From Shinella sp. CPCC 101442 (GTDB lineage Bacteria > Pseudomonadota > Alphaproteobacteria > Rhizobiales > Rhizobiaceae), in assembly GCF_024704725.1 (NCBI RefSeq), contig NZ_JALIQS010000003.1, forward strand, positions 930,001-994,000: a DNA stretch of 64,000 nucleotides, given 5' to 3'. Below are positions 15,446 through 37,237 of this stretch, in pieces (within the stretch, counting starts at the first letter, position 1; each line of letters opens with the position of its first letter). Under the pieces are notes generated by a model. The model searched no databases. It was not told where the DNA came from and was given only the letters and a program-made list of their open reading frames with translations. A program made the translations under genes and the position numbers.

Positions 15446-15468
15446 GGCCTCAGCCTCCTGTCCGTCGC

Positions 15469-19335: not shown

Positions 19336-19412
19336 GTACCAGTTTCCAGCGGCCAGTGATCGCCCTTCAGCAGGGAGACCGAGCCTATTCGCTCTGCGAT
19401 CCGGAGAAAAGA

Positions 19413-19438
19413 GGGTTCGCGCTGGAACGCGCGAACCC
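19413..19438 (-). terminator. Intra-operon hairpin after chvE
   Basis: A ten-base-pair stem (19413-19422 with 19429-19438, six-base loop) sits 20 bases past the chvE stop; on the minus strand it is followed by CCCTCTTTTCTCC. It probably acts as a leaky terminator or 3' stabiliser, so that more ChvE than GguA/GguB is made. Confidence 0.7.
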
Positions 19439-19457
19439 CGGAGAGATTTGAGAACGA

Positions 19458-20531
19458 TTAGTTCTTCAGCTGATCAGCCGTGTAGTAGGCCGAGTCCGTG
19501 ACGAGGATCTTCTCGGCGTTGGACTTGTCGACGGCAACCGGCTTCAGGAGGTAGGACGGGATGACCTTGACGCCGTTGTCATAGGTCTTCGTGTCGTTGA
19601 CCTCAGGTTCCTTGCCTTCGAGGATCGAGTTGACCATGCTGACGGTGACCTTGGCGAGTTCGCGCGTGTCCTTGAAGACCGTCGAATACTGTTCGTCGGC
19701 GAGGATCGACTTGACGGACGGCAGTTCGGCGTCCTGGCCGGTGACGATCGCCATGGCCTGGTCGCCCGAGCCGTAGCCGACGCCCTTCAGGGCCGACAGG
19801 ATACCGATGGAGAGGCCGTCATAGGGCGACAGAACGCCATCGACGCGGCCGTCGGTGTAGGTCGAGGAGAGCAGGTTTTCCATGCGAGCCTGGGCAACGG
19901 CACCGTCCCAACGCAGCGTGCCGACGGTTTCCATGCCGGTCTGGCCCGACTTGACGACGATCGCGCCACTGTCGATCAGCGGCTGGAGGACCGACATCGC
20001 GCCATCGTAGAAGAAGAAGGCGTTGTTATCGTCAGGCGAACCGCCGAAGAGTTCGACGTTCCACGGCTTGGTGTCCGGGAACTTCGCCTTCAGGCCGTCG
20101 ACGAGGCTGGTGGCCTGGAGAACGCCGACCTGGAAGTTGTCGAAGGTGGCGTAGTAGCTGACATTGCCCGAGTCGCGGATGAGGCGGTCGTAAGCGATGA
20201 CCTTAACGCCGGCGTCCGCTGCCTTCTGCAGGATGTCGGAGAGCGTCGTGCCGTCGATGGCGCCGATGACGAGAACCTTGGCACCCTTGGTGACCATGTT
20301 TTCGATCTGGGCCAGCTGGTTCGGAATGTCGTCGTCAGCAAACTGCAGGTCCGGCGTGTAGCCGGCGTCCTTGAACAGCTTTTCCATCGTCTCGCCGTCG
20401 GAAATCCAGCGGGTCGAGGTCTTGGTGGGCATGGAAATGCCGACCATGCCCTTGTCCTGGGCAAAAGCCGGGGCAACGAACGACGCGACGCTGATGGCAG
20501 CCGCCGCGAGAAGCGAGGTGATCATTTTCAT
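19458..20531 (-). CDS. chvE: Periplasmic sugar-binding protein ChvE
   Basis: The 357-residue precursor has a Sec signal peptide (about residues 1-25; [19 protein letters not shown] then PAFA before QDKG) and a type-1 periplasmic binding fold. Segments such as [21 protein letters not shown] and [24 protein letters not shown] match ChvE/MmsB. In Agrobacterium ChvE binds galactose, glucose, arabinose, xylose and acidic sugars, feeds GguAB, and also signals sugars to VirA. GGGAGAG lies about eight bases before the ATG at 20531. It is the first gene of the leftward operon and is divergent from gbpR, its expected activator. No virulence genes are in the window, so the signalling role here is unknown. 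Confidence 0.95.
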
Positions 20532-20784
20532 TGAAAGGTCTCTCCCTTGTGCGCACTGGCCAATTAAGCCAGGCATTGTTCTGTGCACGGGCGGGGTCGC
20601 TTTCAGGCGACGGCCTGGACTGGTGAGCATAGAGCCCGCCGGTCCCCACTCCCAAGGACCCCAGCGCACATTGGCGAAACCTCGTACGAATTGCCATAAC
20701 TGTCAAATGCAATAAGCTTCTAATTCGATATCAAAATTGATATACAATGACGGAAATATAATATTTTTACCGATCGAGGTAACC
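20532..20784. promoter_or_regulatory. Divergent chvE / gbpR control region
   Basis: This 253-base region separates chvE (leftward) from gbpR (rightward). The gbpR-proximal third (20700-20770) is strikingly AT-rich compared with its surroundings (runs such as AATTGATATACAATG and AATATAATATTTTT), as expected for promoters and a LysR-type binding site. I could not fix the exact operator by eye. Confidence 0.6.
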
Positions 20785-21792
20785 ATGCGTTTGGAAGACG
20801 ACATCGACGAACCGCTTTTTCCGGATGAAGGCGGCGACAATTTGCACGGCGTCGGCCTTCTGCGCAGCGGCCTGAAACTTAGCCACCTGCGCATGATCGT
20901 GGCGATCGAGGAGCACAAACAGGTGAGCGCCGCGGCCGACATGCTCAACATCTCCCAGCCCGCCGCATCCCGCATGCTGACGGAAATGGAGACGATCCTC
21001 AAGGCGCAATTGTGCGAGCGGGTCTCGCGCGGTGTGGCGCTGACGGCCTTCGGCCGAGCCTTCGCGCGGCGGGCACGCACGATCCTGCTTGAACTGCGCG
21101 AAGTGGACCGCGAGCTTTCCGCGTTGAAATCCGGCACCGGCGGTTCGGTCTATCTGGGTTCCGTCACCGCGCCGGCGATCAGCCTCGCCGTGCCGGCGAT
21201 CCAGCAGGTCAGCGCCGCCTATCCCGGCATCGAGGTGAATGTACGCGTGGAAACAAGCAACGTGCTCGCCCGCGAACTGCTCGCCGCCCAGCAGGATTTC
21301 ATCATCGCCCGCGTACCCGACGACCTCAACCCCCGCCTCTTCAACGTCACCGAGATCGGCATCGAAAAGGCCTGTCTCATCGTGCGGAAAGGCCATCCGC
21401 TGACGGAAAAACCCGTCGTCGGTCTTGCCGACCTGCCGCATTTCGACTGGGTGTTCCAGCCTGCCGGCACGCTGCTGCGGCGGCGCATCGAAGAGCTTTT
21501 CATCGCCGCCGGCGTGGCGCTGCCCTCCACCGTCGTCAATACGTCGTCGATCCTGCTGACGACGGCCATCGTCTGCGGCTCGAATGCCATTGCGCCCGTC
21601 GCTCGCGACATGGCCGTCTTCATCGCCGATGTCGGCGCGCAGGCGGGCGAGATCAGCATCCTCAACACGGATTTCGACATCGACATCAAACCCTACAGCC
21701 TGATTTCCGTGAAAGGCCGGGCGCTCCCCCCAAGCGCCAAACTGCTCTATGATCTCATCCTGCAACGCAGCCGGATGCTTTCACCGGACTGA
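20785..21792 (+). CDS. gbpR: LysR-type regulator of chvE (GbpR-like)
   Basis: The 335-residue LysR-type regulator has a helix-turn-helix at about residues 35-95 (HLRMIVAIEEHKQVSAAADM then LNISQPAASRMLTEME) and an inducer-binding domain thereafter. The 30-residue acidic N-terminal extension before the helix-turn-helix resembles GbpR. In Agrobacterium GbpR is divergent to chvE and activates it in response to sugars such as arabinose, fucose and galactose. ATG 20785 is preceded by GAGGT at 20776-20780; a TTG at 20737 in the same frame is less likely. A small J-domain-like gene follows after 15 bases. Confidence 0.88.
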   Translation: MRLEDDIDEPLFPDEGGDNLHGVGLLRSGLKLSHLRMIVAIEEHKQVSAAADMLNISQPAASRMLTEMETILKAQLCERVSRGVALTAFGRAFARRARTILLELREVDRELSALKSGTGGSVYLGSVTAPAISLAVPAIQQVSAAYPGIEVNVRVETSNVLARELLAAQQDFIIARVPDDLNPRLFNVTEIGIEKACLIVRKGHPLTEKPVVGLADLPHFDWVFQPAGTLLRRRIEELFIAAGVALPSTVVNTSSILLTTAIVCGSNAIAPVARDMAVFIADVGAQAGEISILNTDFDIDIKPYSLISVKGRALPPSAKLLYDLILQRSRMLSPD

Positions 21793-22589: not shown

Positions 22590-23384
22590 TCATGAACCGA
22601 GGCGTTCAAGGAAGGCTGCAAGCTCCGACGGCTCGATGCCGACGAGATGGCCGTTTTCCGGATAGGCGCCGGAGCGCACGTCCTCGGCATATTCGCGGAA
22701 GGCCGCGATGCGCTCCTGCTGCAGGCGATCATATTCCGCCGCGAAATTGCGGTAGACCTTTGCATGGCGCGGATAATGGCCGCGATTCTGGCCGAGCACG
22801 TCGTCGGCAAAGAGATATTGCGCATCGCAGCCCGTGCCAGCCCCCATGGAGAGCATGACGAGCGCGGTTTTTGCGCTGATCGCCGCAGCGATCTCACCCG
22901 GCACGACCTCGATTTCGGCGGCAAAGGCGCCCGCCTCCTCCAGCGCCTTCACCTGTCTGAAAATCTCCAGCGCGCTGTCCGCCGTTTTGCCGACGGCGCG
23001 GAAACCGCCCGTCCAGGTGGCCTTGGAGGGAATGAGGCCGACATGGCCACAGACCGGAATCCCCTCTTCACGCAGGCGCCGCACCGTGGAAAGGCCGGCC
23101 GCGCAATAGACGGCATCGCCGCCCGCCCGCATCGCCTGGAATGCGCCGCGGAGATAGTCGTCCGCCGTGACGAAATCGCCGTATTCGAGGCCGGGAAAAG
23201 CAAACACGGTGGGCGCCGCTTCGCGAAAAGCCGGGCCCAGCAGGGCCGGCGGCACGGAAACGAGGTCGATGCCCGCCTGTTCGGCGGCGGCAGCTTCTTC
23301 CAGCGTCACGACGCGCAGCATGGTGAGTTGGCGCTTACCCTTCATCGCCCGGATGTCGGCGACGGTCGGTCTCTTGGTCTTCAC
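22590..23384 (-). CDS. PanB-superfamily protein with non-canonical active site
   Basis: The 264-residue protein is related to ketopantoate hydroxymethyltransferase (PanB), visible in PVCGHVGLIPSKATWTGGFR near residue 100, the following helix, and EIEVVPGEIAAAIS near residue 150, where PanB has its general-base glutamate. The Mg-binding aspartates expected in VGDSLG and LADLPF are not present (this protein has VSVPPALLG and FAFPGLEYGD instead), and the Lys-x-Glu-Gly site reads VYCAAGLS. It is therefore unlikely to make ketopantoate. The start is GTG 23384, with GGGAG six bases upstream. It is fourth in the leftward mocD-mocE-mocF operon, 11 bases after mocF, so a role connected with one-carbon release or ring processing is conceivable. 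Confidence 0.75.
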   Translation of the reverse strand: MKTKRPTVADIRAMKGKRQLTMLRVVTLEEAAAAEQAGIDLVSVPPALLGPAFREAAPTVFAFPGLEYGDFVTADDYLRGAFQAMRAGGDAVYCAAGLSTVRRLREEGIPVCGHVGLIPSKATWTGGFRAVGKTADSALEIFRQVKALEEAGAFAAEIEVVPGEIAAAISAKTALVMLSMGAGTGCDAQYLFADDVLGQNRGHYPRHAKVYRNFAAEYDRLQQERIAAFREYAEDVRSGAYPENGHLVGIEPSELAAFLERLGS

Positions 23385-23395
23385 TATGGTCTCCC

Positions 23396-24619
23396 TCAGG
23401 CGGCGAGCAGTTTCTTGAGCTTGGTGTCCGGCGAAGCAAGTTCGGCCGGATCGGGGTGGATGCGGGCGGCGATCAGCATTTCGGCGAGACGGATGTCGCG
23501 AGCGACCGCATTGCCCGGCCCGATGCCGCTGGCCGCGATCAGACGCCCCCCGGCATCGAGGTGAAAGAGGATGAACGCGCCCTCGCCCATATCGCGACGC
23601 ACCGTGCGAACCGCGCCATCGGCAAGGCCGGCGATCTGCAGCGTCATGTCGTACTGATCCGACCAGAACCACGGCACGGCGGCATGCGCCTCGGTGCCAC
23701 CCAGCATGTTTGCTGCGGCAAGCTGGCCCTGCTCCTGTGCATTGCGCCAGGATTCGAGCCGGATACGGCGGTCGCCATAGAGCGGCAGCGGATAAGAGGT
23801 GCAATCGCCCGCTGCAAAGATATCGGGATCGGAGGTGCACAGCAGGCCATCCACGGCAATGCCGTTTTCGACGGCCAGACCGGCGGCTTCCGCCAGCTCC
23901 GTATTCGGCACCGCACCGATGCCGACGACGAGCAGGCTGGCGCTGACAACGCGCCCGTCTTCCAGCGTGATGCGCACGTCACCCGGGCCGTTCTCGACGC
24001 CCGACACCTTCGCGCCGCAGAGAATGTTCACACCCTCCGCCGCGTGGCGGCTTGCGACGATTTCAGCGATCTCCGCCGGTACGCCACGGCTCAGGACGCG
24101 CGGCAGGCCTTCGACAAGCGTAACGCTCGCGCCGAGCTTTCGAGCACTGGCGGCAAGCTCGAGACCGATGAAGCCACCGCCGAGAATGGCGATAGGACTA
24201 CCCTCGACCAGATGTTCTCGGATACGCGTCGCATCGTCATGGCTGCGCAGCGCAAGGATACGTCCGCCGTGGGTCGCCCCCGGCAATGCCCGTGGGCGCG
24301 CGCCGGTTGCCAGAAGCAGCTTGTCGTAGGGAACGACCGCGCCATCCCCCAGCACGACACGCTTTGCGGCACGGTCGATCCCGGACACCGTGCGGCCCAG
24401 CAGCAGGTCGATCCCGGCTTCGACATAGCGCCCCGGCTCGGCGACGAATTTCGGACCGGCGCCAGCGACCAACGCCTCCTTGGAAAGCGGCGGGCGCTCA
24501 TAGGGCGGATGCGTTTCGCTGCCGATCAGGGTCAACGTGCCGTCAAAGCCCTTTTCGCGGAGCGCGAAGGCTGCGCGTGCGCCGCATTCGCCGGCGCCGA
24601 CGATCACGAAATTCGCCAT
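23396..24619 (-). CDS. mocF: Ferredoxin reductase, MocF-like
   Basis: The 407-residue FAD-dependent NAD(P)H:ferredoxin reductase resembles the BphA4/rhodocoxin reductase group. An N-terminal FAD-binding site (FVIVGAGECGARAAFALRE, a GxGxxG variant), a central NAD-binding site (IAILGGGFIGLELAASARKL near residue 150) and the second FAD motif (DIFAAGDCTSYP near residue 275) are visible. It should pass electrons to the adjacent MocE-like ferredoxin. In Ensifer meliloti MocF acts with MocD and MocE in rhizopine catabolism. The gap to mocE is ten bases. The start at 24619 is set by the FAD motif; the open frame upstream to 24739 is inside mocE. Confidence 0.87.
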   Translation of the reverse strand: MANFVIVGAGECGARAAFALREKGFDGTLTLIGSETHPPYERPPLSKEALVAGAGPKFVAEPGRYVEAGIDLLLGRTVSGIDRAAKRVVLGDGAVVPYDKLLLATGARPRALPGATHGGRILALRSHDDATRIREHLVEGSPIAILGGGFIGLELAASARKLGASVTLVEGLPRVLSRGVPAEIAEIVASRHAAEGVNILCGAKVSGVENGPGDVRITLEDGRVVSASLLVVGIGAVPNTELAEAAGLAVENGIAVDGLLCTSDPDIFAAGDCTSYPLPLYGDRRIRLESWRNAQEQGQLAAANMLGGTEAHAAVPWFWSDQYDMTLQIAGLADGAVRTVRRDMGEGAFILFHLDAGGRLIAASGIGPGNAVARDIRLAEMLIAARIHPDPAELASPDTKLKKLLAA

Positions 24620-24629
24620 GGCGGTTCCC

Positions 24630-24944
24630 TCAGATCCCGATGAAGACCGTGCCGCCCTCGACCTTGACCGGATAGGTCTTGAGGTCGACGCAGACGGGCG
24701 CACCCTTGGCCTCGCCGGTCTTGTAGTTGAAGCGGCCATTGTGCTTGGGACATTCGATGATGTGGTCCATCACAAGCCCATCCGCGAGGTGGATCTTTTC
24801 GTGGGTGCAGAGCCCGTCCGTCGCGTGATAGGTGTCCTCCGGGCTGCGGTAGACCGCAAAAGTGCGGCCCGCATGATCGAAGCGGATGACATCCTCCTCG
24901 TCGATATCATCGGCTGCGCAGACTTCGATCCAGGTGTCGCTCAT
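24630..24944 (-). CDS. mocE: Rieske-type ferredoxin, MocE family
   Basis: The 104-residue soluble protein has the Rieske [2Fe-2S] ligands Cys46-x-His48 (GLCTHEKIHL) and Cys65-x-x-His68 (IECPKHNGRF). Length and sequence match the MocE family of ferredoxins. It should carry electrons from the MocF-like reductase to the MocD-like oxygenase. It lies between those two genes with gaps of 10 and 27 bases. ATG 24944 was chosen over an upstream ATG at 24959 because the family begins with MSDTWIEV. Confidence 0.92.
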   Translation of the reverse strand: MSDTWIEVCAADDIDEEDVIRFDHAGRTFAVYRSPEDTYHATDGLCTHEKIHLADGLVMDHIIECPKHNGRFNYKTGEAKGAPVCVDLKTYPVKVEGGTVFIGI

Positions 24945-24971
24945 GGGTCTCTCCTCCAAAGACGTAGGGTG

Positions 24972-26057
24972 TTATTCGGCGGCGGCGAAAGCCGGTTCGG
25001 CGTGGAATTCTTCCTTGTAGGGCCGTGCGGTTTCGGGCAGCGCGCGCTTGAGGAAGTAGTCTTCGTTGCGCAACTGGCGCAGGAAGGCCGGCAGCATTTC
25101 CCGGTAGCCGTGCCACATGGACGGGTTCGGCGTGGGAAGGTCGTGCCTGATCATGGCGTGCAGCCGCGGCAGGGCATGATAGGGCACCATCGGGAACATG
25201 TGGTGCTCCACGTGATAGTTCATGTTCCAATAGATGAAGCGGCTGATCGGGTTCATATAGACCGTGCGGCTGTTCAAGCGGTGGTCGACAACGTTGTCGG
25301 CCAGGCCGCCATGCTGCAACAGACCGGTGAGCACATGGTGCCAGGCGCCGTAGAGCCTGGGCAAACCGATGAACATGGCCGGCAGGATGGAGCCGAAATA
25401 GAGGCAGGTGGCGATCGTCGCGAGATAGATGGCGAGCCAGATGCGGGCGATGCGGATCGCCTTCGGCTGTTCCGTTTCCGGAACGAAGGTCTTTTCCGCC
25501 TCGCTCATGACGCCGGCCGCGTTGCGCACCATGTCGACGACAGCGTGCCAGGCATCGAGAATACCGAAGAAGTTCAGCACGAGGCGAACGAGATCCGGCG
25601 GGCGCATGACGGCGATTTCCGGATCGCGGCCAACGATGACCGTGTCCGTGTGATGGCGCGTATGGCTCCAGCGCCAGGTGACCGGGTTGCGCATGATCAT
25701 GAAGCAGGCGATCTGGTAGACGGCATCGTTCATCCACATCGTCTTGAAGGCCGTGCCGTGGCCGCATTCGTGCCAGCGGCTATCTGACGCCGAGCCGTAA
25801 AGCACGCCGTAGATCAGAAAGAAGGGTACGGCAGCCCAGCTTCCCCAGAACCAGGCGCCGAGCGCACCGGAGAGGACCATCGCGCCGAGCCAGATCGCCG
25901 TGTCGCGAATGGCGGGAGCATCGCTGCGCTGCATCAGCGCCTTCATCTCTTTGCGGGCGACATCGGTGTGATACCACTCGGCCGCGGCCAGACCGTTGGC
26001 AACGGCCGCTTCGGCATCCCGGCCAAGAAGACTATAGTCCCGCTTCGTCGGCTTCAT
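24972..26057 (-). CDS. mocD: Membrane di-iron oxygenase/desaturase, MocD-like
   Basis: The 361-residue membrane protein of the fatty acid desaturase/hydroxylase superfamily carries the histidine boxes HECGH (residues 96-100), HTRHH (132-136) and HVEHH (282-286) that bind a di-iron centre. Hydrophobic segments occur near residues 52-90 and 205-235. In Ensifer meliloti L5-30, MocD with MocE and MocF is needed to use the O-methylated rhizopine, consistent with oxidative O-demethylation. The ATG at 26057 has GGAGG seven bases upstream. It is the first gene of the operon and divergent to a LacI regulator. A role on another methylated cyclitol or even a lipid cannot be excluded. Confidence 0.85.
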   Translation of the reverse strand: MKPTKRDYSLLGRDAEAAVANGLAAAEWYHTDVARKEMKALMQRSDAPAIRDTAIWLGAMVLSGALGAWFWGSWAAVPFFLIYGVLYGSASDSRWHECGHGTAFKTMWMNDAVYQIACFMIMRNPVTWRWSHTRHHTDTVIVGRDPEIAVMRPPDLVRLVLNFFGILDAWHAVVDMVRNAAGVMSEAEKTFVPETEQPKAIRIARIWLAIYLATIATCLYFGSILPAMFIGLPRLYGAWHHVLTGLLQHGGLADNVVDHRLNSRTVYMNPISRFIYWNMNYHVEHHMFPMVPYHALPRLHAMIRHDLPTPNPSMWHGYREMLPAFLRQLRNEDYFLKRALPETARPYKEEFHAEPAFAAAE

Positions 26058-26218
26058 CGCTTTTCCTCCCTGCAAGGCGCTTTCCGGCGACCCGCCTCAT
26101 CTGATGGACAAACGATAACGCCGCCGCTTGCATCTCTCAATCCCGCCATGATAGAATGCGTCAAAATCCATCATTAGCTATCATTCAATATTGATGGAAA
26201 GATTTCAGGGAGAGCCAC
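26058..26218. promoter_or_regulatory. Divergent mocD / lacI promoter region with inverted repeats
   Basis: Two imperfectly overlapping inverted repeats lie here: ATGATAG (26148-26154) with CTATCAT (26178-26184), and TCCATCA (26167-26173) with TGATGGA (26192-26198). They lie between divergent start codons at 26057 and 26219 and are candidate binding sites for the adjacent LacI-type regulator. Confidence 0.45.
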
Positions 26219-27250
26219 ATGGCATCGAGACCCACCATCTCTGACCTTGCGCAGGCGGCCGGCGTCAGCGTGGCAACGGTCGATCGCGTGCTGAACGGCC
26301 GTCACAAGGTGCGGGAGGAAACGGCGCGCCGGGTCTATGATGCCGCCAACGCGATCGGCTATCACGCCATCGGCCTCATCCGGCAGCGCGTCTTCGAGGA
26401 CCTGCCGCAATATCGCCTGGGCTTCAGTTTCCAGCGCCCGAACCAGGCCTTCTACCAGAATTTCGCCCGCGAGATCGAAATCGCATGCAACGCCTGCACG
26501 GTCGCGCGCATCGTGCCGCAAATCGAATTCATCAATGCGCAGACGCCGGCTGCGATGACCGAAATGCTGCGCCAGCTATCGACGCGCAACCAGGCGCTTG
26601 CCGTCGTGGCACCCGACTATCCCGCAACGACGACAATGGCGGAAGACCTGAAAAATCGGGGCATCCCGCTGTTCTGCCTGCTGTCCGATTTCGCCATGGA
26701 CGTGCGTCAGGGCTATATCGGCCTCAACAATATGAAGGTCGGCCGCACCGCCGCCTGGATGATCGCGCACGGCGCCAAACGGCCGGGCAAGGTGGCGATC
26801 TTCGTCGGCAGTCACCGCTTTCATGGCCATGAACTGCGCGAGATCGGCTTCCGCTCCTTCTTCCGCGAGAAGGGCCAGGGGTTCGAGGTCCTGGATACGC
26901 TCGTCAATCTCGACACCAGCGAGATCACCCACGAGGCGACCGCCAACCTGCTTGCCCAGCATCCCGATCTTGTCGGCCTCTACGTGGCAGGCGGCGGCAT
27001 GGAGGGTGCGATTTCGGCCGTGCGCGAAGAGGGTTACGCCGGCAAGATCCAGCTCATCGTCAACGAGCTGACGCCGGAATCGAAGGCCGGGCTTGCCGAC
27101 GATATCGTAACGATGGCGATCCATACGCCGCTTGCAGCACTTTGCCGGGAGCTCGTCTCGCTGATGGTGACGGCGATCGAAAAGGGGGAGAATGCCGTGC
27201 CGGGCCAGACCTTCCTGCCGTTCGAGCTCTTCACGCCGGAAAACATCTGA
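26219..27250 (+). CDS. LacI-family regulator of the moc/inositol cluster
   Basis: The 343-residue protein has an N-terminal LacI helix-turn-helix (TISDLAQAAGVSVATVDRVL followed by NGRHKVREET, residues 5-40), a hinge helix region, and a periplasmic-binding-protein-like sensor domain (about 65-343). It starts at ATG 26219 after GGGAGAG. It diverges from the mocDEF operon and leads into the rightward isomerase, transporter and idhA genes, so it could control both arms. The effector is unknown; a cyclitol or its keto product fits the context. Confidence 0.87.
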   Translation: MASRPTISDLAQAAGVSVATVDRVLNGRHKVREETARRVYDAANAIGYHAIGLIRQRVFEDLPQYRLGFSFQRPNQAFYQNFAREIEIACNACTVARIVPQIEFINAQTPAAMTEMLRQLSTRNQALAVVAPDYPATTTMAEDLKNRGIPLFCLLSDFAMDVRQGYIGLNNMKVGRTAAWMIAHGAKRPGKVAIFVGSHRFHGHELREIGFRSFFREKGQGFEVLDTLVNLDTSEITHEATANLLAQHPDLVGLYVAGGGMEGAISAVREEGYAGKIQLIVNELTPESKAGLADDIVTMAIHTPLAALCRELVSLMVTAIEKGENAVPGQTFLPFELFTPENI

Positions 27251-27413
27251 CGTCGCCTTGATAGTTTTCTCTCACGTGAAGCCCTTAATCTTTCAACAAT
27301 GAGGGCGCCGACAGCACCTCGGACTTTGACGCCCGTCAAGGGCTCCCCGATCCTCATGCGTGCATGCGAGGCGGCCCTGTCGGTGGCCTCGACTACCGGA
27401 GGACACCCATTTC

Positions 27414-28220
27414 ATGCCGACTTTCGCCATCAACCACATGACCGCGCCCGCGCTGAAACTCGACGCCTTCTTCGCGCTTGCCGTCTCCCTCGGCACCAGC
27501 GCTGTCGAAATCCGCAACGATCTTGATGGCAACGCCATTCTCGACGGCACCACGCCGGCCGAGGTGAAGGCACTCGCCGAGCGCCACGGCGTGACGATCA
27601 TCTCCATCAATGCCCTGCAGCGTTTCAACGAATGGACGCCCGCCCGCGCCGCCGAGGCAAGGGACCTGATCGACTATGCAAGCGCCTGTGGCGCAAAGGC
27701 CCTCGTGCTCGTACCGCAGAACGACGGCACCGGCCAGGCCGACGGCGAGCGGCAGGCCAATCTTCAGCAGTCACTGACCGCTCTCAAGCCGCTGCTTGAC
27801 GCCGCCGGCATCCTTGGCCTCGTCGAGCCGCTCGGCTTCGAGATCTGCTCGCTGCGCTCCAAACGTGAGGCCGTCGAAGCAATCAAGACCGTCGCCGGAG
27901 AACAGACATTCCGCCTGGTACATGACACGTTCCACCATCATCTGGCAGGCGAGCCGGACATCTTTGCCGATTTTACCGGCCTGGTTCATATCTCGGGTGT
28001 GGAGGACGCCGATATCGCCATCTCCGATATGCGCGATGGCCATCGCGTGCTCGTCGGCCCGGCAGACAGGCTGGCAAATACCAGCCAGATCAGGGCCTTG
28101 ATCGCTGCCGGCTATGCCGGGCCGCTGTCCTTCGAGCCCTTCTCGCCGGCCGTGCACGGCGTCGCCGATCCAAAGACCGCGATTGCCGAAAGCATCGCCT
28201 TCCTTCGCGCAAACATCTGA
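27414..28220 (+). CDS. TIM-barrel sugar isomerase/epimerase, IolI/MocC-like
   Basis: The 268-residue protein belongs to the xylose isomerase-like TIM-barrel superfamily (AP_endonuc_2 fold). Expected metal-binding positions are suggested by AVEIRNDLDG near residue 30, LVEPLGFEICSL (Glu near residue 140), LVHDTFHHHLAG (Asp/His near residue 175) and LSFEPFSP (Glu near residue 240). Such proteins isomerise or dehydrate inososes (IolI, IolE, MocC). Its location between the LacI regulator and an inositol-type transporter supports a role on keto-inositols. CGGAGGA at 27397-27403 precedes ATG 27414. Confidence 0.82.
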   Translation: MPTFAINHMTAPALKLDAFFALAVSLGTSAVEIRNDLDGNAILDGTTPAEVKALAERHGVTIISINALQRFNEWTPARAAEARDLIDYASACGAKALVLVPQNDGTGQADGERQANLQQSLTALKPLLDAAGILGLVEPLGFEICSLRSKREAVEAIKTVAGEQTFRLVHDTFHHHLAGEPDIFADFTGLVHISGVEDADIAISDMRDGHRVLVGPADRLANTSQIRALIAAGYAGPLSFEPFSPAVHGVADPKTAIAESIAFLRANI

Positions 28221-28320
28221 GAAATCCGGTGGCAACAGCCTGCCACCGCCACTTTTCCCCAGCCCGACCAAAATCCCCTTCCGCCAAAATGGAACGGGCT
28301 TGACGCCATAAACAGAAAAT

Positions 28321-28363
28321 GGAATAAACATTCCGCAATACGGAATTCGCGGTTTGTTTATTC
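28321..28363. promoter_or_regulatory. IolR-like palindrome upstream of the transporter operon
   Basis: GGAA-N6-TTCC occurs at 28321-28334 (GGAATAAACATTCC), the form I recall for the RpiR-type inositol repressor IolR in Ensifer meliloti. It overlaps a second inverted repeat, ATTCCG/CGGAAT (28330-28346), and an outer pair GAATAAACA (28322-28330) with TGTTTATTC (28355-28363). The whole lies about 110-150 bases before the binding-protein gene. Confidence 0.65.
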
Positions 28364-28474
28364 TGTTTTGGCCTTTGCCTCCCGGGAGGAGCGACGGCCG
28401 GGGCGCCCGCAGGGGAAGCCATCCGGATTAAGTCAGTGGTGCTGCCGGACACCACGTTGAGGAGGAGAACGAAC

Positions 28475-29404
28475 ATGAAAAAATTCATCCTGAGCTCGGC
28501 ACTTGCCGTAATGATGTCGACGGCTGCCCACGCTGAGACGATCGGCGTTTCCATGGCGCTGTTCGACGACAACTTCCTGACCGTTCTGCGCAACGGCATG
28601 ACCGACTACGCCAAGACGCTCGACGGCGTCGACCTGCAGGTCGAAGACGCCCAGAACGATGTCGCCAAGCAGCAGAGCCAGATCCAGAACTTCATCGCCT
28701 CCGGCGTCAGCGCCATCATCGTCAACCCGGTCGATACCGATGCGACGGCGGCTCTCTCGAAGGCTGCCGCAGACGCCGGCATTCCGCTCGTCTACGTCAA
28801 CCGCGAACCGGCAAACATCAACGAACTGCCGGAAAAGCAGGCGTTCGTCGCCTCCAACGAGCAGGAATCCGGTACGCTGGAAACCAAGGAAGTCTGCCGC
28901 CTCCTGAACGGCAAAGGCAAGGTCGTCGTCATGATGGGCGAACTGTCCAACCAGGCCGCGCGCATGCGCACGCAGGATATCAAGGACGTCATCGCGACCG
29001 ACGAGTGCAAGGGCCTGACCATCGTCGAAGAGCAGACGGCCAACTGGTCGCGCACGCAGGGCGCCGACCTGATGACCAACTGGCTCTCCGCCGGCCTGGA
29101 ATTCGACGCCGTCATCTCCAACAATGACGAAATGGCGATCGGCGCCATTCAGGCCCTGAAGGCCGCCGGCCGCTCGATGGACAGCGTCGTCGTTGCAGGC
29201 ATCGACGCCACGCAGGACGCCCTTGCCGCCATGGCTGCCGGCGACCTCGACGTGACGGTCTTCCAGGACGCCGCCGGCCAGGGCAAGGGATCGGTCGATG
29301 CCGCGCTCAAGCTCGCCAAGGGCGAAAAGGTCGAGACGAAGGTTTACATCCCCTTCCAGCTCGTCACGCCGGCAAACATCGCTGACTTCCAGGCGAAGAA
29401 CTGA
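28475..29404 (+). CDS. Periplasmic inositol/rhizopine-type binding protein
   Basis: The 309-residue precursor has a signal peptide (residues 1-20; MKKFILSSALAVMMSTAAHA before ETIG) and a type-1 periplasmic binding fold. Segments ETIGVSMALFDDNFLTVLRN, IIVNPVDTDATAALSKAAAD and ISNNDEMAIGAIQALKAAG match the IbpA/MocB group that binds myo-inositol or related cyclitols. GAGGAGGAGAA precedes the ATG at 28475. It heads an operon with the ATPase, permease and idhA. The nearest-function choice between inositol and rhizopine is inferred from context. Confidence 0.88.
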   Translation: MKKFILSSALAVMMSTAAHAETIGVSMALFDDNFLTVLRNGMTDYAKTLDGVDLQVEDAQNDVAKQQSQIQNFIASGVSAIIVNPVDTDATAALSKAAADAGIPLVYVNREPANINELPEKQAFVASNEQESGTLETKEVCRLLNGKGKVVVMMGELSNQAARMRTQDIKDVIATDECKGLTIVEEQTANWSRTQGADLMTNWLSAGLEFDAVISNNDEMAIGAIQALKAAGRSMDSVVVAGIDATQDALAAMAAGDLDVTVFQDAAGQGKGSVDAALKLAKGEKVETKVYIPFQLVTPANIADFQAKN

Positions 29405-29443
29405 TCGGCTCACCGGTCTCGTGAATATCCGCTAGACTATGAA

Positions 29444-29473
29444 GGACGCGCGCACGCGGGCGTGCGCGCGTCC
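29444..29473 (+). terminator. Intra-operon hairpin after the binding-protein gene
   Basis: A perfect 13-base-pair GC-rich stem (29444-29456 with 29461-29473, loop CGGG) lies 40 bases past the binding-protein stop and upstream of the ATPase gene. There is no U-tract, so mRNA stabilisation or a pause site is likelier than full termination. Confidence 0.72.
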
Positions 29474-29508
29474 AACCTGTTTCAGGTTGCTCCGGGAGGG
29501 AGGGGACG

Positions 29509-31047
29509 ATGGTCAGTCCAACCACCATGGCCGCGGTTCGCGCAAGCGGCGCCATTCCGAATGCCGAATATCTCTTGTCTGCGGAAGGCGTCCGCAAGGA
29601 ATTCCCGGGCGTCGTCGCGCTCGATGATGTCCAGTTCAAGCTGAGACGCGGTTCCGTGCATGCCTTGATGGGCGAGAACGGCGCCGGAAAGTCCACGCTG
29701 ATGAAGATCCTTGCCGGCATCTACACGCCCGACCAGGGCGAGGTGCTGCTGAAGGGGCAGAAGATCCGCCTGAAATCACCGCTCGACGCGCTGGAGAACG
29801 GCATCGCCATGATCCATCAGGAACTGAACCTGATGCCTTTCATGACGGTTGCGGAAAATATCTGGATCCGCCGCGAACCGAAGAACCGCTTCGGCTTCGT
29901 CGATCACGGCGAGATGCACCGTAAGACCGCCGAACTCTTCAAGCGCCTCAACATCGTGATGGACCCGGAAGTGCAGGTGCGCGACCTCTCCGTCGCCAAC
30001 CGCCAGATGGTCGAGATCGCCAAGGCCGTTTCCTATGAGAGCGATGTGCTCATCATGGACGAGCCGACCTCGGCGCTGACCGAGCGCGAGGTGGACCACC
30101 TCTTCACGATCATCCGCGACCTGCGTTCGCAGGGCATCGGCATCGTCTACATCACCCACAAGATGAACGAGCTGTTCGAGATCGCCGACGAATTCTCGGT
30201 GTTCCGCGACGGCAAATATATCGGCACGCATGCCTCTACCGACGTGACCCGCGACGACATCATCCGCATGATGGTCGGCCGCGAGATCACCCAGATGTTC
30301 CCGAAAGAGGACGTGCCGATCGGAGACGTCGTTCTGTCGGTCAGGAACCTCAACCTCAAGGGCGTCTTTCACGACATCTCCTTCGACGTGCGCGCCGGGG
30401 AAATCCTGGGTATCGCCGGCCTCGTCGGCTCGGGCCGCTCGAATGTCGCCGAGACGATCTTCGGCGTGACGCCTGCGACGTCAGGCACGATCTCGATCAA
30501 CGGCAAGCAAGTCAACATCGACAGCCCGAACACCGCAATCAAGCACCGCATGGCGTTCCTGACGGAAGACCGCAAGGACACGGGCTGTCTGCTGATCCTC
30601 GACATCCTGGAAAACATGCAGATCGCCGTGTTGCAGGACAAGTTCGTCAAGAACGGCTTCGTTTCCGAGGGCGCGCTGACGAAGGTCTGCGAGGAGATGA
30701 GCAAGAAGCTCAGGGTCAAGACGCCCAACCTGTCGGAGCGCATCGAGAACCTGTCGGGCGGCAACCAGCAGAAGGTGCTGATCGGCCGCTGGCTGCTCAC
30801 CAATCCGCGCATCCTCATCCTCGACGAGCCGACCCGCGGCATCGATGTCGGCGCCAAGGCGGAAATCCACCGCTTCGTCACCGAACTCGCCAAGGACGGC
30901 GTCGCCGTCATCATGATCTCGTCGGAAATGCCGGAAGTGCTCGGCATGAGCGATCGCGTCATGGTCATGCACGAGGGCCGCGTCACCGGCATTCTCGACC
31001 GCGCCGAGGCAACGCAGGTCAAGGTCATGGAACTGGCGGCCCAGTAA
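29509..31047 (+). CDS. Inositol-type ABC transporter ATPase (two domains)
   Basis: The 512-residue protein has two nucleotide-binding domains. Domain one has Walker [17 protein letters not shown] near residue 60 and Walker [16 protein letters not shown]; domain two has [32 protein letters not shown] and [15 protein letters not shown]. It is of the RbsA/IatA type and would power uptake together with the permease that follows after 64 bases. GGGAGGGAGGGG lies before the ATG. The 20-residue N-terminal extension ([16 protein letters not shown]) is longer than in GguA. Confidence 0.92.
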
Positions 31048-31111
31048 GAGCGGGTCCCAAGGTTGGGCCAGTGAGATTTAAGGCCGCCGAGCGGCCATCA
31101 GGGAGGTAATC

Positions 31112-32131
31112 ATGAGCACGAATTCCGCCGCGCAGGCTCAAAGCCCCGCGCAGAAATCTGCCCGCCGGCTCCCGCCGGAACTCAACATCTTTCTCGTCCT
31201 CGTCGGCATTGCGCTGGTCTACGAAGTCCTTGGCTGGATTTTCGTCGGCCAGAGCTTCCTGATGAACCCGCAGCGCCTGACGATCATCATCCTGCAGGTT
31301 TCCGTCATCGGCATCATCGCCGTGGGTGTGACGCAGGTCATCATTACCGGGGGCATCGACCTGTCGTCCGGCTCCGTCGTCGGCATGACGGCGATGTTCA
31401 CGGCCTCGCTGGCGCAAGCCTCGACCTGGCCGCGCGCGCTCTATCCCTCGCTGACGGACATGCCGGTCATCGTGCCGGTGGTGGTCGGCATCGGCGTCGG
31501 CCTGCTCGCCGGCTTCATCAACGGCCAGCTCATCGCCAAGACCAAGATCCCGCCCTTCATCGCCACGCTCGGCATGATGGTGTCGGCACGCGGCATCTCC
31601 AAGTGGTACACGAAGGGCCAGCCGGTCTCGGGCCTCACGGAACAGTTCAACTTCATCGGCACCGGCATCTGGCCCGTCGTGATCTTCCTCGTCGTCGCCG
31701 TGATCTTCCACATCGCGCTACGCTACACCCGCTACGGCAAGTTCACCTATGCGATCGGCGCCAATGTGCAGGCCGCCCGCGTCTCCGGCATCAATGTCGA
31801 ATCCCATCTCGTGAAGGTCTATGCGATTGCCGGTGCGCTCGCTGGCCTCGCCGGTGTCGTCACTGCCGCCCGCGCCCAGACCGCGCAGGCCGGCATGGGC
31901 GTGATGTACGAACTCGATGCCATCGCCGCGACCGTCATCGGCGGCACCTCGCTTGCCGGCGGTGTGGGCCGCATCACCGGCACGGTCATCGGCACCGTCA
32001 TCCTCGGCGTCATGACCTCGGGCTTTACCTTCCTGCGCGTCGATGCTTTCTACCAGGAGATCGTCAAGGGCGTGATCATCGTGGCCGCCGTCGTCGTCGA
32101 CGTCTACCGCCAGAAGAAGCGCAAGACGTAA
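31112..32131 (+). CDS. Inositol-type ABC transporter permease
   Basis: The 339-residue membrane protein of the CUT2 permease family has about nine hydrophobic segments. The family motif QVIITGGIDLSSGSVVGMTA lies near residue 75, and the EAA-like and C-terminal segments [20 protein letters not shown] are present. It corresponds to the IatP role of inositol importers. The gene ends with a basic YRQKKRKT tail. The next gene, idhA, starts 105 bases on. Confidence 0.92.
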   Translation: MSTNSAAQAQSPAQKSARRLPPELNIFLVLVGIALVYEVLGWIFVGQSFLMNPQRLTIIILQVSVIGIIAVGVTQVIITGGIDLSSGSVVGMTAMFTASLAQASTWPRALYPSLTDMPVIVPVVVGIGVGLLAGFINGQLIAKTKIPPFIATLGMMVSARGISKWYTKGQPVSGLTEQFNFIGTGIWPVVIFLVVAVIFHIALRYTRYGKFTYAIGANVQAARVSGINVESHLVKVYAIAGALAGLAGVVTAARAQTAQAGMGVMYELDAIAATVIGGTSLAGGVGRITGTVIGTVILGVMTSGFTFLRVDAFYQEIVKGVIIVAAVVVDVYRQKKRKT

Positions 32132-32236
32132 CCGAAATCCTCGCGGTTCGCCGCGACGCTTTTGCGGGGCGAGCGTATCGCCCCGCCCCTCCTCCCGCAT
32201 GATCCCCAAGCATGCGGCTTACTTGAGAGAATGAAG

Positions 32237-33229
32237 ATGACTGTGAGATTTGGTCTTCTCGGCGCAGGCCGCATCGGCAAGGTGCATGCCAAGGCCCTGA
32301 CAGGCAATCCCGATGCCGTGCTCGTCGCCGTCGCCGATGCCTTCCCGGCGGCCGCCGACGCCATCGCCAAGCAGTATGGCTGCGATGTGCGCACGATCGA
32401 GGCGATCGAAGCCGCCAAGGACATCGATGCCGTCGTGATCTGCACGCCGACCGACACCCATGCCGACCTCATCGAACGCTTTTCCCGCGCCGGCAAGGCG
32501 ATCTTCTGCGAAAAGCCGATCGACCTCGACGTCGACCGCGTGCGCGCCTGCATGAAGGTGGTGGAAGAAACCAAGGGCAAGCTGATGGTCGGCTTCAACC
32601 GCCGCTTCGACCCCCATTTCATGGCCGTGCGCAAGGCGATCGACGACGGCAAGATCGGCGACGTCGAGATAGTCACCATCACGTCGCGCGATCCCGGCGC
32701 CCCGCCGGTCGACTACATCAAACGTTCCGGCGGCATCTTCCGCGACATGACGATCCACGACTTCGACATGGCCCGCTTCCTGCTGGGCGAAGAGGTCGCC
32801 TCGGTCTCGGCGACCGCCGCCGTTCTGGTCGACCCGGAAATCGGCAAGGCCGGTGACTATGACAGCGTCTCGGTCATCCTCCAGACCAAGTCCGGCAAGC
32901 AGGCGATCATCTCCAACTCCCGCCGCGCCACCTACGGCTACGACCAGCGTATCGAGGTACACGGCTCTAAGGGCGTCGTCTCCGCCGAAAACCAGCGCCC
33001 CGTCTCCATCGAAATCGCCAATGGAGACGGCTACACCCGCCCACCGCTGCACGACTTCTTCATGACCCGCTATACGGAAGCCTACGCCAACGAGATCGCG
33101 GCCTTCATCGCCGCCATCGAAAAGGGCGCCACCATCACCCCCTCCGGCGCCGACGGCCTCGCCGCCCTGGCACTCGCCGATGCGGCCGTAAGGTCTGTCG
33201 AAGAAAAGCGCCATATCTCCGTCGCCTGA
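32237..33229 (+). CDS. idhA: Inositol 2-dehydrogenase (IdhA/IolG, MocA-type)
   Basis: The 330-residue Gfo/Idh/MocA oxidoreductase oxidises myo-inositol (or scyllo-inositol-like cyclitols) to the 2-keto form with NAD. The dinucleotide site LLGAGRIGKVHAKALTG is at the N-terminus, CEKPIDLD carries the catalytic-lysine motif near residue 97, and GGIFRDMTIHDFDMARFLLG contributes the Asp/His active-site pair near residues 172-176. The length and sequence agree closely with my recollection of rhizobial IdhA. ATG 32237 was chosen for family length; an in-frame ATG two codons upstream is possible. It ends the operon and is followed by a terminator. Confidence 0.92.
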   Translation: MTVRFGLLGAGRIGKVHAKALTGNPDAVLVAVADAFPAAADAIAKQYGCDVRTIEAIEAAKDIDAVVICTPTDTHADLIERFSRAGKAIFCEKPIDLDVDRVRACMKVVEETKGKLMVGFNRRFDPHFMAVRKAIDDGKIGDVEIVTITSRDPGAPPVDYIKRSGGIFRDMTIHDFDMARFLLGEEVASVSATAAVLVDPEIGKAGDYDSVSVILQTKSGKQAIISNSRRATYGYDQRIEVHGSKGVVSAENQRPVSIEIANGDGYTRPPLHDFFMTRYTEAYANEIAAFIAAIEKGATITPSGADGLAALALADAAVRSVEEKRHISVA

Positions 33230-33859: not shown

Positions 33860-34648
33860 TCAGGCCGTCTGCATGGCGCCGGGGCCGGGAATGGCCTTGG
33901 GCGGCACCTTGCCGAGGATGATCATGCCGAGGACTTCGTCCTTGGTGACGTCCTCGGTGCGGGCGTGGCCGACAACCTGGCCGTTCTTCATGACCGAGAC
34001 GCGGTCGGCCAAATCGAAGACGTCGTGGATGTCGTGGCTGATCAGGAAGATGCCGATACCTTCCTTCTTCAGCTGCTTGATCAGCTCGCCGACCTGCGCC
34101 GTCTCCTGCGGGCCGAGCGCCGCCGTCGGCTCGTCCATGATCAGGATGCGGGCGTTGAACAGGATCGCCCGGGCGATCGCCACCGACTGGCGCTGGCCGC
34201 CGGAGAGCGCCTTCACCGGCTCCTTGAAGCGCTGGAAGTTCGGGTTGAGGCGGCCCATCACTTCGCGGGTCTTGGCCTCCATCGCGACATCGTCGAGCGT
34301 ACCCCAGGGGGTGCGCAGTTCGCGGCCGAGATAGAGGTTGGCGGCGGCATCGACATTATCGGCCACGGCGAGCGTCTGGTAGATCGTCTCGATGCCGTAT
34401 TTCTTGGCGTCGCGCGGGTTGCCGATGTCGGCGGGTTCGCCGTTGATCAGGATCTCGCCGCCATCGCGCTTGTAGGCACCGGAGAGAACCTTGATCAGCG
34501 TCGACTTGCCGGCGCCGTTATGACCGAGAAGTGCCACGACCTCGCCGGGGTAGAGATCGACCGAGGCATTGTCCACGGCGTGGATGCCGCCGAAGGAGAT
34601 GGAAATGTTCTTCAGCTCCACGAGCGGCGTACGGGTGGTGTCCGTCAT
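33860..34648 (-). CDS. xylG: Xylose-type ABC transporter ATPase, single domain
   Basis: The 262-residue protein has one nucleotide-binding domain only: Walker [19 protein letters not shown] (about residue 40), Q-loop near [10 protein letters not shown], signature [17 protein letters not shown] and Walker [16 protein letters not shown]. Most CUT2 ATPases are double-length, as are the other two in this window, but half-size versions (FrcA type) are known in rhizobia and work as dimers. The C-terminal tail after about residue 235 is Pro/Gly-rich. It is 14 bases downstream of the permease gene. The xylose assignment is shared with the binding protein and remains provisional. Confidence 0.85.
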
Positions 34649-34662
34649 TGGTCCAACTCCTC

Positions 34663-35976
34663 TTACTTAGCGCGGGCGCGGTAGACCGTGTCGAGCCAGA
34701 CGGCAACGACGAGGACCATACCGACCACGATGCGCTGGAACGGGGTGTCGATGCCAACAAGCACCATGCCCGATTGCAGCGATTGCATGACGAGGGCGCC
34801 GAGCATGGCGCCAGCGATTGTGCCCATGCCGCCCGCAAGCGACGTGCCGCCGATCACGGCGGCCGCGATCGTATAGAGCTCGTCGAGTTCGCCCTGCGCA
34901 TTGGTCGCGGCATTGAGGCGGGCGGTGGAAATGGCGGCTGCGACGGCGCAGAGAATGCCCATCAGCGCGAAGATCTTGACGGTCACCCAGCGGGTCTTGA
35001 TGCCCGCGAGTTCCGCCGCCTCGGGATTGCCGCCGAGCGCGAAAACGTAGCGGCCGAAGCGCAGGCGCGTCGAGATGAAGGTCATGACGATGCCGACGAC
35101 GATGGCGATCAGCACGGGAATGGCGATGCCATGGGGGATGAACAATCCGCCCTCCGGCCAGGCGATGCCGTTGGCATCTGCGAATTTGCGGGCGATGGCG
35201 ACGGGCCAGGGATAGCTGTTGACGATCAAGACGGCGCCGAGCACCAGCGCGCAGCCGATGGCGACCAGGAAATACTCGGCCCACATCGGACGCAGCGGGA
35301 AGCCGAAGCGTTTGCGCTGCTTGCGGGAATTGGCGATCGTCGCGACGATGGCCGCGCAGGCGAGCGCGCCGACGATCCAGCTCGCCGTTGCCCCGATCGA
35401 GCCCTCGGTGCCGCCGCCCATCAGGCGGAAGGTGGCATCCATGGGGGCCACGGTGCGGCCGCTGGTGACGAACCAGGTGGCGCCGCGCCAGACGAGCAGG
35501 CCGCCGAGCGTGACGATGAAGGAGGGAACGTTGAGGAAGGCGATGATCGAGCCATGCAGCGCGCCGATCGCGGCACCGAGCAGCAGGCCACAGAGCAGCG
35601 TGACGATCCAGATCGCCGGATGATTGAAGCCGAGCAGCTGCGGCAGCAGTTCGGCCTGCAGCACACCCATGATCATGCCGACGAAACCGAGGATGGAACC
35701 GACGGAAAGATCGATGTTGCGCGTCACGATGACCAGCACCATGCCGGTCGCCATGACGGCGACGGAGGCCGTCTGGACGGAGAGGTTCCAGAGGTTGCGG
35801 GGCGTGAGGAACAGGCCACCGGACAAGATGTTGAAGCCGATCCAGATGATCAGCAGCGCGCCGACCATGCCGAGCAGGCGCGTATCGATTTCGGTGGCGC
35901 GGAAGAAGCGCTTCACCGGGTTCTCGCTTGCCGATCGCGCACGATTGGCAGAAGCGGTCGTCGTGATGTCGGCCAT
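34663..35976 (-). CDS. xylH: Xylose-type ABC transporter permease
   Basis: The 437-residue permease is of the XylH type, with roughly 12 hydrophobic segments. [20 protein letters not shown] (about residue 83) is the conserved motif. An N-terminal cytoplasmic stretch of about 30 residues precedes the first helix, and the C-terminal domain has [20 protein letters not shown] then [16 protein letters not shown] 35976 ([14 protein letters not shown]) is the likely start; an in-frame extension to 36063 overlaps no known domain. It follows xylF with a 217-base gap that contains a hairpin. Confidence 0.9.
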
Positions 35977-36127
35977 GGTTTGCCGTTCCCCCACTTTTGT
36001 TGAACGTGTCGTCCGGGCGTATCCAAGAGTTGGAGAAGGATGTTCCGGAAAACCGGTTCCCACTTTTCCTCATCCTGCTTTCGAGGATGTGTCGTCGCAT
36101 CATCCTCCGCCCGCTGCCCATCTTGCG

Positions 36128-36160
36128 CAAGCGCCGCAACGGAAGCCGCTGCGGCGCTTG
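36128..36160 (-). terminator. Intra-operon hairpin after xylF
   Basis: Perfect 11-base arms CAAGCGCCGCA (36128-36138) and TGCGGCGCTTG (36150-36160) form a stem with an 11-base loop 33 bases past the xylF stop and upstream of xylH. It lacks a clear U-tract and may stabilise xylF mRNA or reduce read-through into xylH. Confidence 0.7.
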
Positions 36161-36193
36161 TCGATGGTCAGGTCAGTACCGGATGGTCGCTAC

Positions 36194-37237
36194 TCAGTTG
36201 CAGGCTGCAACGGAGCCGGCGGCAACGCCCTGGCAAGCCGTTTCCTTCGGGATCCAGCCGGCGTCGATGACGACGTTCAGATTGTCCTTGGTGATCGGCA
36301 GCGGCGCGAGGAAGACCGACTTCATCTCGACGCCCTTCGGGCCGCCGTTGAAGGTGGTGACGCCTTCGATCTCGTCCATGGTCTTGCCGCTGGCGAGCGT
36401 CGCTGCGATTTCCGCAGCACGCTTGCCGAGTTCACGCGAGTCTTTCCAGACCGAAACGGTCTGGGTGCCGAGAGCGACGCGGTTCAGCGCGGCGTGGTCG
36501 GCGTCCTGGCCGGAAACCGGTACGGTGCCGGCAAGGCCCTGTGCGGAAAGCGCTGCGATCGCGCCGCCGGCCGTGCCGTCGTTCGAGGCAACGACCGCGT
36601 CGACCTTGTTGTCGTTCGCCGTCAGGAACTGTTCCATGTTCTTCTGGGCGTTTTCCGGCTTCCAGCCGTCGGTGTAGGCTTCACCGACATTCTTGATCTT
36701 GCCGGCGTCGATCGCTTCCTTCAGCACTTCCTGCTGACCAGCGAAGAGGAAGTCGGCGTTCGGGTCGGACGAGGAGCCCTTGATGAAGACGTAGTTGCCT
36801 TCCGGCTTCACCTTGAACACTTCGCGGGCCTGCATGCGGCCGACTTCCTTGTTGTCGAAGGTGATGTAAAAGGCAGCCGGGTTTTCGATCAGGCGGTCGT
36901 AGCCGACGACCGGAATGCCTTCAGCGGCAGCCTTTTCGATGGCCGGACCGATGGCTTCGGAATCCTGGGCGAGAACGATGATGGCATTGGCGCCCTGGGC
37001 GATCAGCGACTCGACGTCGGTCAGCTGCTTGGCGGCAGACGACTGGGCGTCAGCAGAAATGTACTTGTCGCCGGACGCTTCGAGAGCGGCCTTGATGGCG
37101 GCTTCGTCGGTTTTCCAACGCTCTTCCTGGAAGTTCGACCAGGAAACGCCGACCACCAGATCCTTGGCGTGCGCAATACCGGAATGCAGGGAAACGATGA
37201 TGGCAGCCCCTGCCATCAGCTTCAAAACGGACTTCAT
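36194..37237 (-). CDS. xylF: D-xylose-type periplasmic binding protein
   Basis: The 347-residue precursor has a signal peptide (about residues 1-24; [20 protein letters not shown] then IAHA before KDLV). The mature part fits Xyl[21 protein letters not shown] at the N-lobe, [20 protein letters not shown] in the hinge region and [20 protein letters not shown] near residue 255. It captures D-xylose or a similar pentose for the XylH/XylG pair. It is the first gene of a leftward operon facing a ROK repressor across a palindromic operator. A role for another aldose is possible. Confidence 0.9.

Follow-up and report, generated by a model that had tools for sequence, protein, structure and literature searches.

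Gene content of the locus

The stretch of DNA analyzed here (the window) comprises 64,000 nucleotides of contig NZ_JALIQS010000003.1 from Shinella sp. CPCC 101442, whose genome is of the Rhizobiaceae type and spans 6.1 Mb in 29 contigs. Between positions 22590 and 33229, two divergent gene units share a 161-base spacer. The leftward unit consists of mocD, mocE, mocF and a PanB-like gene that we call panBl; the rightward unit runs from lacI through the genes for an isomerase, a binding protein and the ATPase and permease of an ATP-binding cassette (ABC) transporter to iolG (Table 1). We consider it likely that these genes, under the control of LacI, serve the catabolism of an O-methyl inositol that is not an amine, combining uptake, O-demethylation and ring oxidation.

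An earlier note on this DNA had placed a catabolic cluster for O-methyl inositols here, possibly of the rhizopine type. All the genes it named are present, each as an intact open frame with family support. It was also right that mocD, mocE and mocF lie in one operon, but it left out that operon's fourth gene, panBl, which falls inside the same interval and starts with a GTG 11 bases past the end of mocF. For three of the genes, the searches used start codons up to three codons upstream.

Table 1. Features of the locus in window coordinates, with the matches that identify them
Feature	Position	Strand	Support
panBl: divergent protein of PanB fold, encoded by the fourth gene of the mocDEF operon; proposed to handle one-carbon units	22590..23384	-	PF02548, E 7e-42; below NCBIfam PanB cut-offs; predicted PanB fold
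mocF: flavin adenine dinucleotide (FAD)-dependent ferredoxin reductase	23396..24619	-	Pyr_redox_2 and Reductase_C
mocE: Rieske-type [2Fe-2S] ferredoxin	24630..24944	-	TIGR02377 (MocE family), 178 bits (cut-off 136)
mocD: membrane di-iron oxygenase, proposed O-demethylase	24972..26057	-	PF00487; histidine boxes
lacI-mocD spacer, candidate LacI operator region	26058..26218	.	four TGATNGA half-sites: 26102, 26149, 26167, 26192
lacI: regulator, FixV-like group	26219..27250	+	PF00356 and Peripla_BP_4; FixV relation according to the available part of PMC3538637
IolI-type TIM-barrel isomerase (Msi119-like)	27414..28220	+	PF01261; PDB 2q02/4hgx, E 3e-40; IolI 1i60, E 6.5e-6
MocB-like sugar/cyclitol-binding protein	28475..29404	+	81% identity to MocB of locus L185; nearest solved chain 4yo7, 45%
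sugar ABC transporter ATPase	29509..31047	+	family matches
sugar ABC transporter permease	31112..32131	+	family matches
iolG/idhA: inositol 2-dehydrogenase	32237..33229	+	TIGR04380, 426 bits (cut-off 355); 4hkt, E 8e-189

Conservation of the neighborhood

The histidine boxes of MocD (H96/H100, H132/H135/H136 and H282/H285/H286) are invariant across 29 aligned sequences, and the MocD profile matched no solved structure. We scanned named genome contigs with the MocD alignment and kept the best 80 of 583 confirmed stretches, so the set leans toward close kin. Within it, the nearest named relatives of MocD come from Shinella (94% and 90%); a separate plasmid match reaches 91.7%. One 4-kb locus was excluded, and 71 of the remaining 79 carry a MocD of at least 74% identity. 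Neighbors of these close relatives were counted up to 10 kb to each side of MocD at fixed identity thresholds (at least 60% for PanBl).

The core recurs, with MocE in 71/71 loci and LacI and MocF in 68 each. The IolI-type isomerase and the binding protein are each found near MocD in 42 of the 71, the permease in 37, the ATPase in 21, IolG in 29, PanBl in 40, PurU in 12 and FolD in 4. At least one of isomerase, binding protein and IolG is present in 61 loci; at least five of the ten with none have short flanks. Among the 54 loci with at least 9 kb on both sides, LacI occurs in 52, the IolI-type gene and the binding protein in 33 each, IolG in 26, PanBl in 28, PurU in 11 and FolD in 4. A gene from a group whose scanned representative belongs to the KduI/IolB family is present in two Devosia loci and in one locus of an uncultured Rhizobium. 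The whole host genome has three IolG genes above the cut-off in its 6.1 Mb. The arrangement is more than chance. These 61 neighborhoods, together with the identity of the binding protein to MocB, support the earlier note's view of an O-methyl-inositol type of catabolic cluster.

One could also argue that two separate systems adjoin each other here, with LacI-mocDEF-panBl for the demethylation of some other methylated sugar, and the transporter and IolG for myo-inositol. Many Rhizobium and Sinorhizobium loci do have the LacI-mocDEF core without transporter and IolG. Moreover, a second MocD group, at about 71% identity, has a Gfo/Idh gene, DUF4432, a TIM-barrel isomerase and a sugar transporter of another kind as neighbors, and in most cases MocE and PanBl as well; its probable role is to demethylate some other methylated sugar or cyclitol. 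Against a division into two systems, binding protein and IolG accompany MocD in several genera at the frequencies given above, and the binding protein is a close relative of MocB. In Peteryoungia, iolG even follows panBl directly and in the same direction, inside the mocDEF-panBl run. Hence, we think that two systems are unlikely.

Comparison with rhizopine loci

On pSymA of S. meliloti T073 lies a locus of rhizopine layout (L185): an IolE-type MocC, which scores above the TIGR04379 cut-off, a Gfo/Idh protein in the MocA position, a MocB-type protein and a GntR-aminotransferase in the MocR position, continuing with mocD, mocE, mocF, panBl and purU. The names MocA, MocB, MocC and MocR in L185 are based on layout and families rather than on L5-30 sequences. 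Rhizobium bangladeshense 1002 has a second such locus (L157), with MocR 83% and MocC 80% identical to L185.

One alternative is that the window cluster is itself a catabolic locus for rhizopine (3-O-methyl-scyllo-inosamine). MocD, MocE, MocF and a MocB-like protein are shared with the rhizopine locus of S. meliloti L5-30 and its relatives, as far as the available part of PMC10107442 describes it, and PanBl is shared with T073. MocD, MocE, PanBl and the binding protein are 80–86% identical to their counterparts in the T073 locus. However, the window has LacI in place of MocR, and the best MocR match in the host genome reaches only 40%, compared with 83% between the two rhizopine-type loci. It has IolG and an IolI-type isomerase where rhizopine loci have MocA and MocC/IolE, and its binding protein is accompanied by a complete ABC transporter. 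A search with the L185 MocC, confined to the window, gave no match at E 1e-8. The isomerase, which the earlier note had labeled IolI/MocC-type, was rejected as a MocC, since the rhizopine protein belongs to the IolE family and the two are not similar.

The promoter regions differ as well. L185 has two exact published moc-boxes before mocD, 24 bases apart, with repeat length and spacing as given in the accessible text of PMC10107442, whereas the mocD spacer of the window has no such pair at up to two mismatches. Over whole sequences, boxes with up to two mismatches are not above chance (42 against 38 expected in the window, 25 against 19 in L185); among the moc-box data, weight can be given only to the two exact boxes that precede mocD in L185. 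L185 has a second pair upstream of its MocC/IolE-type gene (L185:3558-3592; one box exact, one with two mismatches, 24 bases apart), whereas the mocC promoter of L5-30 is reported as constitutive in the part of PMC10107442 covered here.

The binding protein differs too, despite its overall similarity. Nine positions (V26A, L30V, N34K, L36G, Q61L, N85Q, Q248D, A268V and V291I) have a residue common to the MocB proteins of L185 and L157 that is absent from all 23 other proteins in the alignment, among them that of the window; a further, more distant protein was excluded from this comparison. We would guess that some of these positions line the ligand pocket. Given its genes and their sequences, we do not take the window cluster for a rhizopine system, and the rhizopine option left open by the earlier note is improbable.

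How the two kinds of locus are related is indicated by a MocD tree (120 rows, built by a quick method), which places the two rhizopine-type loci within the clade associated with LacI and makes the copy on pSymB of S. meliloti Rm41 the neighbor of L185. This suggests that the rhizopine mocDEF genes were derived from the LacI cluster; since tree support there is 81–92, the derivation is suggested rather than shown.

We did not rely on NF052284 (rhizopine catabolism ABC transporter substrate-binding protein) to recognize rhizopine loci. MocB of T073 (L185:9313-10242) scores 46 bits on this model, whose cut-off is 420, and the eight best-match loci lack MocD; a protein from one locus without MocD (L057:17567-18433) scores 507. 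For these reasons we identified such loci by the order of their genes and by the presence of MocR and moc-boxes. The name given to the model may mislead.

The PanB-like fourth gene

Public annotation names PanBl-type genes ketopantoate hydroxymethyltransferase. The closest folds of a predicted PanBl model (mean predicted local distance difference test score, pLDDT, of 91) are indeed PanB, with PanB chains making up all of the first 28 PDB matches at TM-scores of 0.63–0.70. An alternative explanation would be an ordinary PanB recruited for pantothenate synthesis. This does not agree with the family scores, which fall below both NCBIfam PanB cut-offs (130 against 272 bits and 110 against 208 bits). 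Nor does it agree with the active site. D84, K112 and E114 of E. coli PanB, which we take to be the metal and keto-acid site, are replaced by G65, Y93 and A95, while H136 and E181 are kept as H114 and E159. The replacements are widespread: in 90 aligned sequences, window included, the first position is G in 83, the second Y in 86 and the third A or S in 80. In the same alignment H114 and H207 are found in all 90, and E157, E159 and D187 in 89 each. PanBl is, by these residues, a divergent PanB paralogue that has lost PanB active-site residues.

The company PanBl keeps also argues against a true PanB. A search for PanBl gave 51 matches at E ≤1e-50, and for 50 of these loci we examined the genes within 10 kb. 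An oxygenase is present in 44/50: MocD in 33, an FA_hydroxylase-like gene in 10 and a Rieske oxygenase in 1, with families confirmed for four of the FA_hydroxylase genes and for the Rieske gene. The other six are near no oxygenase, one of them on a 3-kb contig. MocE is near 37 and MocF near 14 of the PanBl genes. The 51st match lies about 2 kb from a MocD by its search coordinates. Among 297 genomes of the order, 42 have MocD and 30 have PanBl, and 26 of the 42 MocD genomes hold PanBl, counts that are uncorrected for kinship. Given the scores, the replaced residues and the oxygenase company, we rejected PanBl as a true PanB; it is very improbable that it makes pantothenate.

We see the common factor of these loci in the disposal of a one-carbon unit after oxidative demethylation. 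PanBl may then carry out the one-carbon step of O-demethylation, and it is the best genomic hint for the release of such a unit. In Agrobacterium HAMBI 105 panBl is followed by PurU and FolD, and in S. meliloti T073 by PurU. The link to folate is recurrent, yet found in a minority of loci. The host genome itself has a second PanBl cluster (L186, contig C8, about 202.7–212.8 kb), in which an FA_hydroxylase-type gene (84% to the example in L188) occurs with a sugar transporter, MocE, a TIM-barrel gene, PanBl, an IolG above the cut-off, MocF, PurU and a 103-residue FolD-like frame. It resembles a second demethylation module, parallel to the first but equipped with an unrelated oxygenase.

In another locus (L194:8910-12521) a distant MocD (36%), MocE, an M24/creatinase-type gene and PanBl lie in one run, which hints at demethylation of another compound class.

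The LacI regulator and its relation to FixV

A palindrome search for a LacI operator in the lacI-mocD spacers gave nothing consistent. The half-site TGATNGA, however, occurs on average 2.02 times per spacer in 94 distinct loci, compared with 0.075 after shuffling, and 65/94 spacers have at least two. The half-site was picked from 8-mers shared by the same spacers and the control shuffled single bases only, so the enrichment is somewhat flattered. We regard the spacer with its TGATNGA sites as a candidate LacI operator region.

According to the available part of the M. loti FixV paper (PMC3538637), the nearest relatives of FixV adjoin mocDEF and an epimerase gene, and an inositol derivative was proposed as the inducer. 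As in the window, LacI is divergent from mocDEF and the epimerase lies downstream of LacI, and these FixV-mocDEF-msi119 neighborhoods are probably the same core cluster. They differ in being described there as rhizopine-linked, and that part of the paper does not mention PanBl, the transporter or IolG. Since the neighborhoods of FixV relatives mostly lack the rhizopine regulator, an O-methyl inositol would be a natural candidate for the FixV ligand. Pinitol and ononitol accumulate in Lotus nodules (PMC8730688, as far as available). In the M. carmichaelinearum genome (L218:4429-15567), a LacI 56% identical to that of the window lies near fixG, fixP, fixO and a dicarboxylate transporter gene. 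This is a possible further FixV-like recruitment.

Neighboring sugar genes

A separate sugar cluster occupies window positions 12224-21792 (dihydroxy-acid-type dehydratase, aldehyde dehydrogenase, sugar ABC transporter, LysR) and resembles a non-phosphorylating sugar pathway. It recurs beside mocDEF in Aminobacter and other Shinella loci. On the other side lie a further sugar ABC transporter (ATPase, permease and binding protein, 33860-37309) and a ROK-family gene (37409-38701).

Discussion

Our results are consistent with the following pathway. The MocB-like binding protein and the ABC transporter would import a methylated cyclitol, which LacI would sense, acting at the lacI-mocD spacer. Electrons would pass from NAD(P)H through MocF and MocE to MocD, the membrane di-iron oxygenase, which would hydroxylate the O-methyl group. 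The hydroxylated product would fall apart into free inositol and a one-carbon unit. PanBl may take this unit, as formaldehyde or a bound hydroxymethyl group, and pass it toward tetrahydrofolate. IolG would oxidize the inositol, and the IolI-type isomerase would turn 1-keto-D-chiro-inositol into scyllo-inosose, which could enter the ordinary iol pathway. For that pathway we searched the host genome, beyond IolG, for KduI/IolB, and found two family matches elsewhere.

A P450-based system in marine bacteria removes the methyl group of 6-O-methyl-D-galactose as formaldehyde and likewise combines an oxygenase with a ferredoxin and a reductase. The window differs in having a membrane di-iron oxygenase, a cyclitol as the proposed substrate and PanBl as the likely one-carbon handler.

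What is the substrate? In B. subtilis, IolG oxidizes D-chiro-inositol to 1-keto-D-chiro-inositol, which IolI isomerizes to scyllo-inosose (PMC3176187, available part). The window has the same pair of an IolG and an IolI-type isomerase; it differs in placing an O-demethylation module in front and in having an isomerase that is only a distant relative of IolI. Demethylated pinitol is D-chiro-inositol, hence D-pinitol (3-O-methyl-D-chiro-inositol) fits best and is in our view the most likely substrate. Ononitol, which would yield myo-inositol and need no isomerase, fits less well; we regard pinitol as somewhat likelier and ononitol as the second choice. The binding protein is a close relative of a MocB whose locus has an O-methylated cyclitol amine as its ligand class. 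The ligand of its nearest solved relative, 4yo7, is presumably myo-inositol. Root exudate of Mimosa, in which pinitol is the most concentrated listed component at 145 uM, induces several genes of R. mesoamericanum: mocDEF, idhA, iol genes and a transporter with a MocB homologue (PMC5789663, available part).

Several observations weigh against this interpretation. The authors of the R. mesoamericanum study ascribe the induction to rhizopine, according to the same part of PMC5789663. The isomerase is only distantly similar to IolI (E 6.5e-6 to 1i60, about 3e-40 to 2q02 and 4hgx, no NCBIfam match), which limits the argument for pinitol. In R. leguminosarum and S. meliloti, many loci have neither the transporter nor IolG close by, and these parts may therefore be separable from the core. 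PanBl is likewise not indispensable everywhere, since 31/71 close relatives, Mesorhizobium and the R. tropici group prominent among them, have none nearby. Folate genes are scarce: of 50 PanBl loci across the order, only 3 have PurU within 10 kb and 1 has FolD, and around MocD the counts are 12/71 and 4/71.

A role in lipid or alkane metabolism, with the position beside inositol genes being incidental, is the least probable explanation of MocDEF, and we rejected it. MocD does belong to the fatty acid desaturase superfamily, and relatives at 28–36% identity are widespread in the order, but its close relatives are stably linked to LacI, sugar transporter, isomerase and IolG, and MocDEF are part of the rhizopine regulon in the available text of PMC10107442. 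The comparison of MocD neighborhoods that the earlier note had proposed revealed no lipid or alkane pattern in the neighborhoods read, though some neighbor genes are unnamed.

Some parts of the system were known before. The available parts of the literature describe mocDEF in rhizopine use (PMC10107442) and the LacI-mocDEF-epimerase neighborhood (PMC3538637). In the literature covered, which holds few subscription papers, we found no record of a PanB-like gene in mocDEF operons, nor of a bacterial O-methyl-inositol demethylation cluster or a pinitol or ononitol catabolic gene set. The cluster is real and conserved, and it probably includes a new one-carbon enzyme.

A wider proposal would join two ideas. 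PanBl could be the first recognized member of a new kind of enzyme: a protein of PanB fold that lacks the metal and keto-acid residues of PanB and picks up what oxidative demethylation releases, be it formaldehyde or a hydroxymethyl group, with tetrahydrofolate as the probable acceptor. Three unrelated families of oxygenase would have recruited it, and rhizopine use would be one of the settings. At the same time, LacI of the cluster could be the catabolic counterpart of FixV, with a nodule O-methyl inositol, such as Lotus pinitol, as the signal that turns on nifA2 in M. loti. Taken together, these two ideas are possible but doubtful.

Both pinitol and ononitol are common among legumes and build up in nodules (PMC8730688, as far as available). 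The cluster is a concrete candidate for their catabolism that is present in many rhizobia, and it predicts a one-carbon enzyme behind genes that are publicly called PanB. It also suggests that one demethylation module serves both rhizopine catabolism and a more common system for O-methyl inositols. Finally, it offers a testable class of ligands for FixV, the M. loti regulator that switches on nitrogen fixation.

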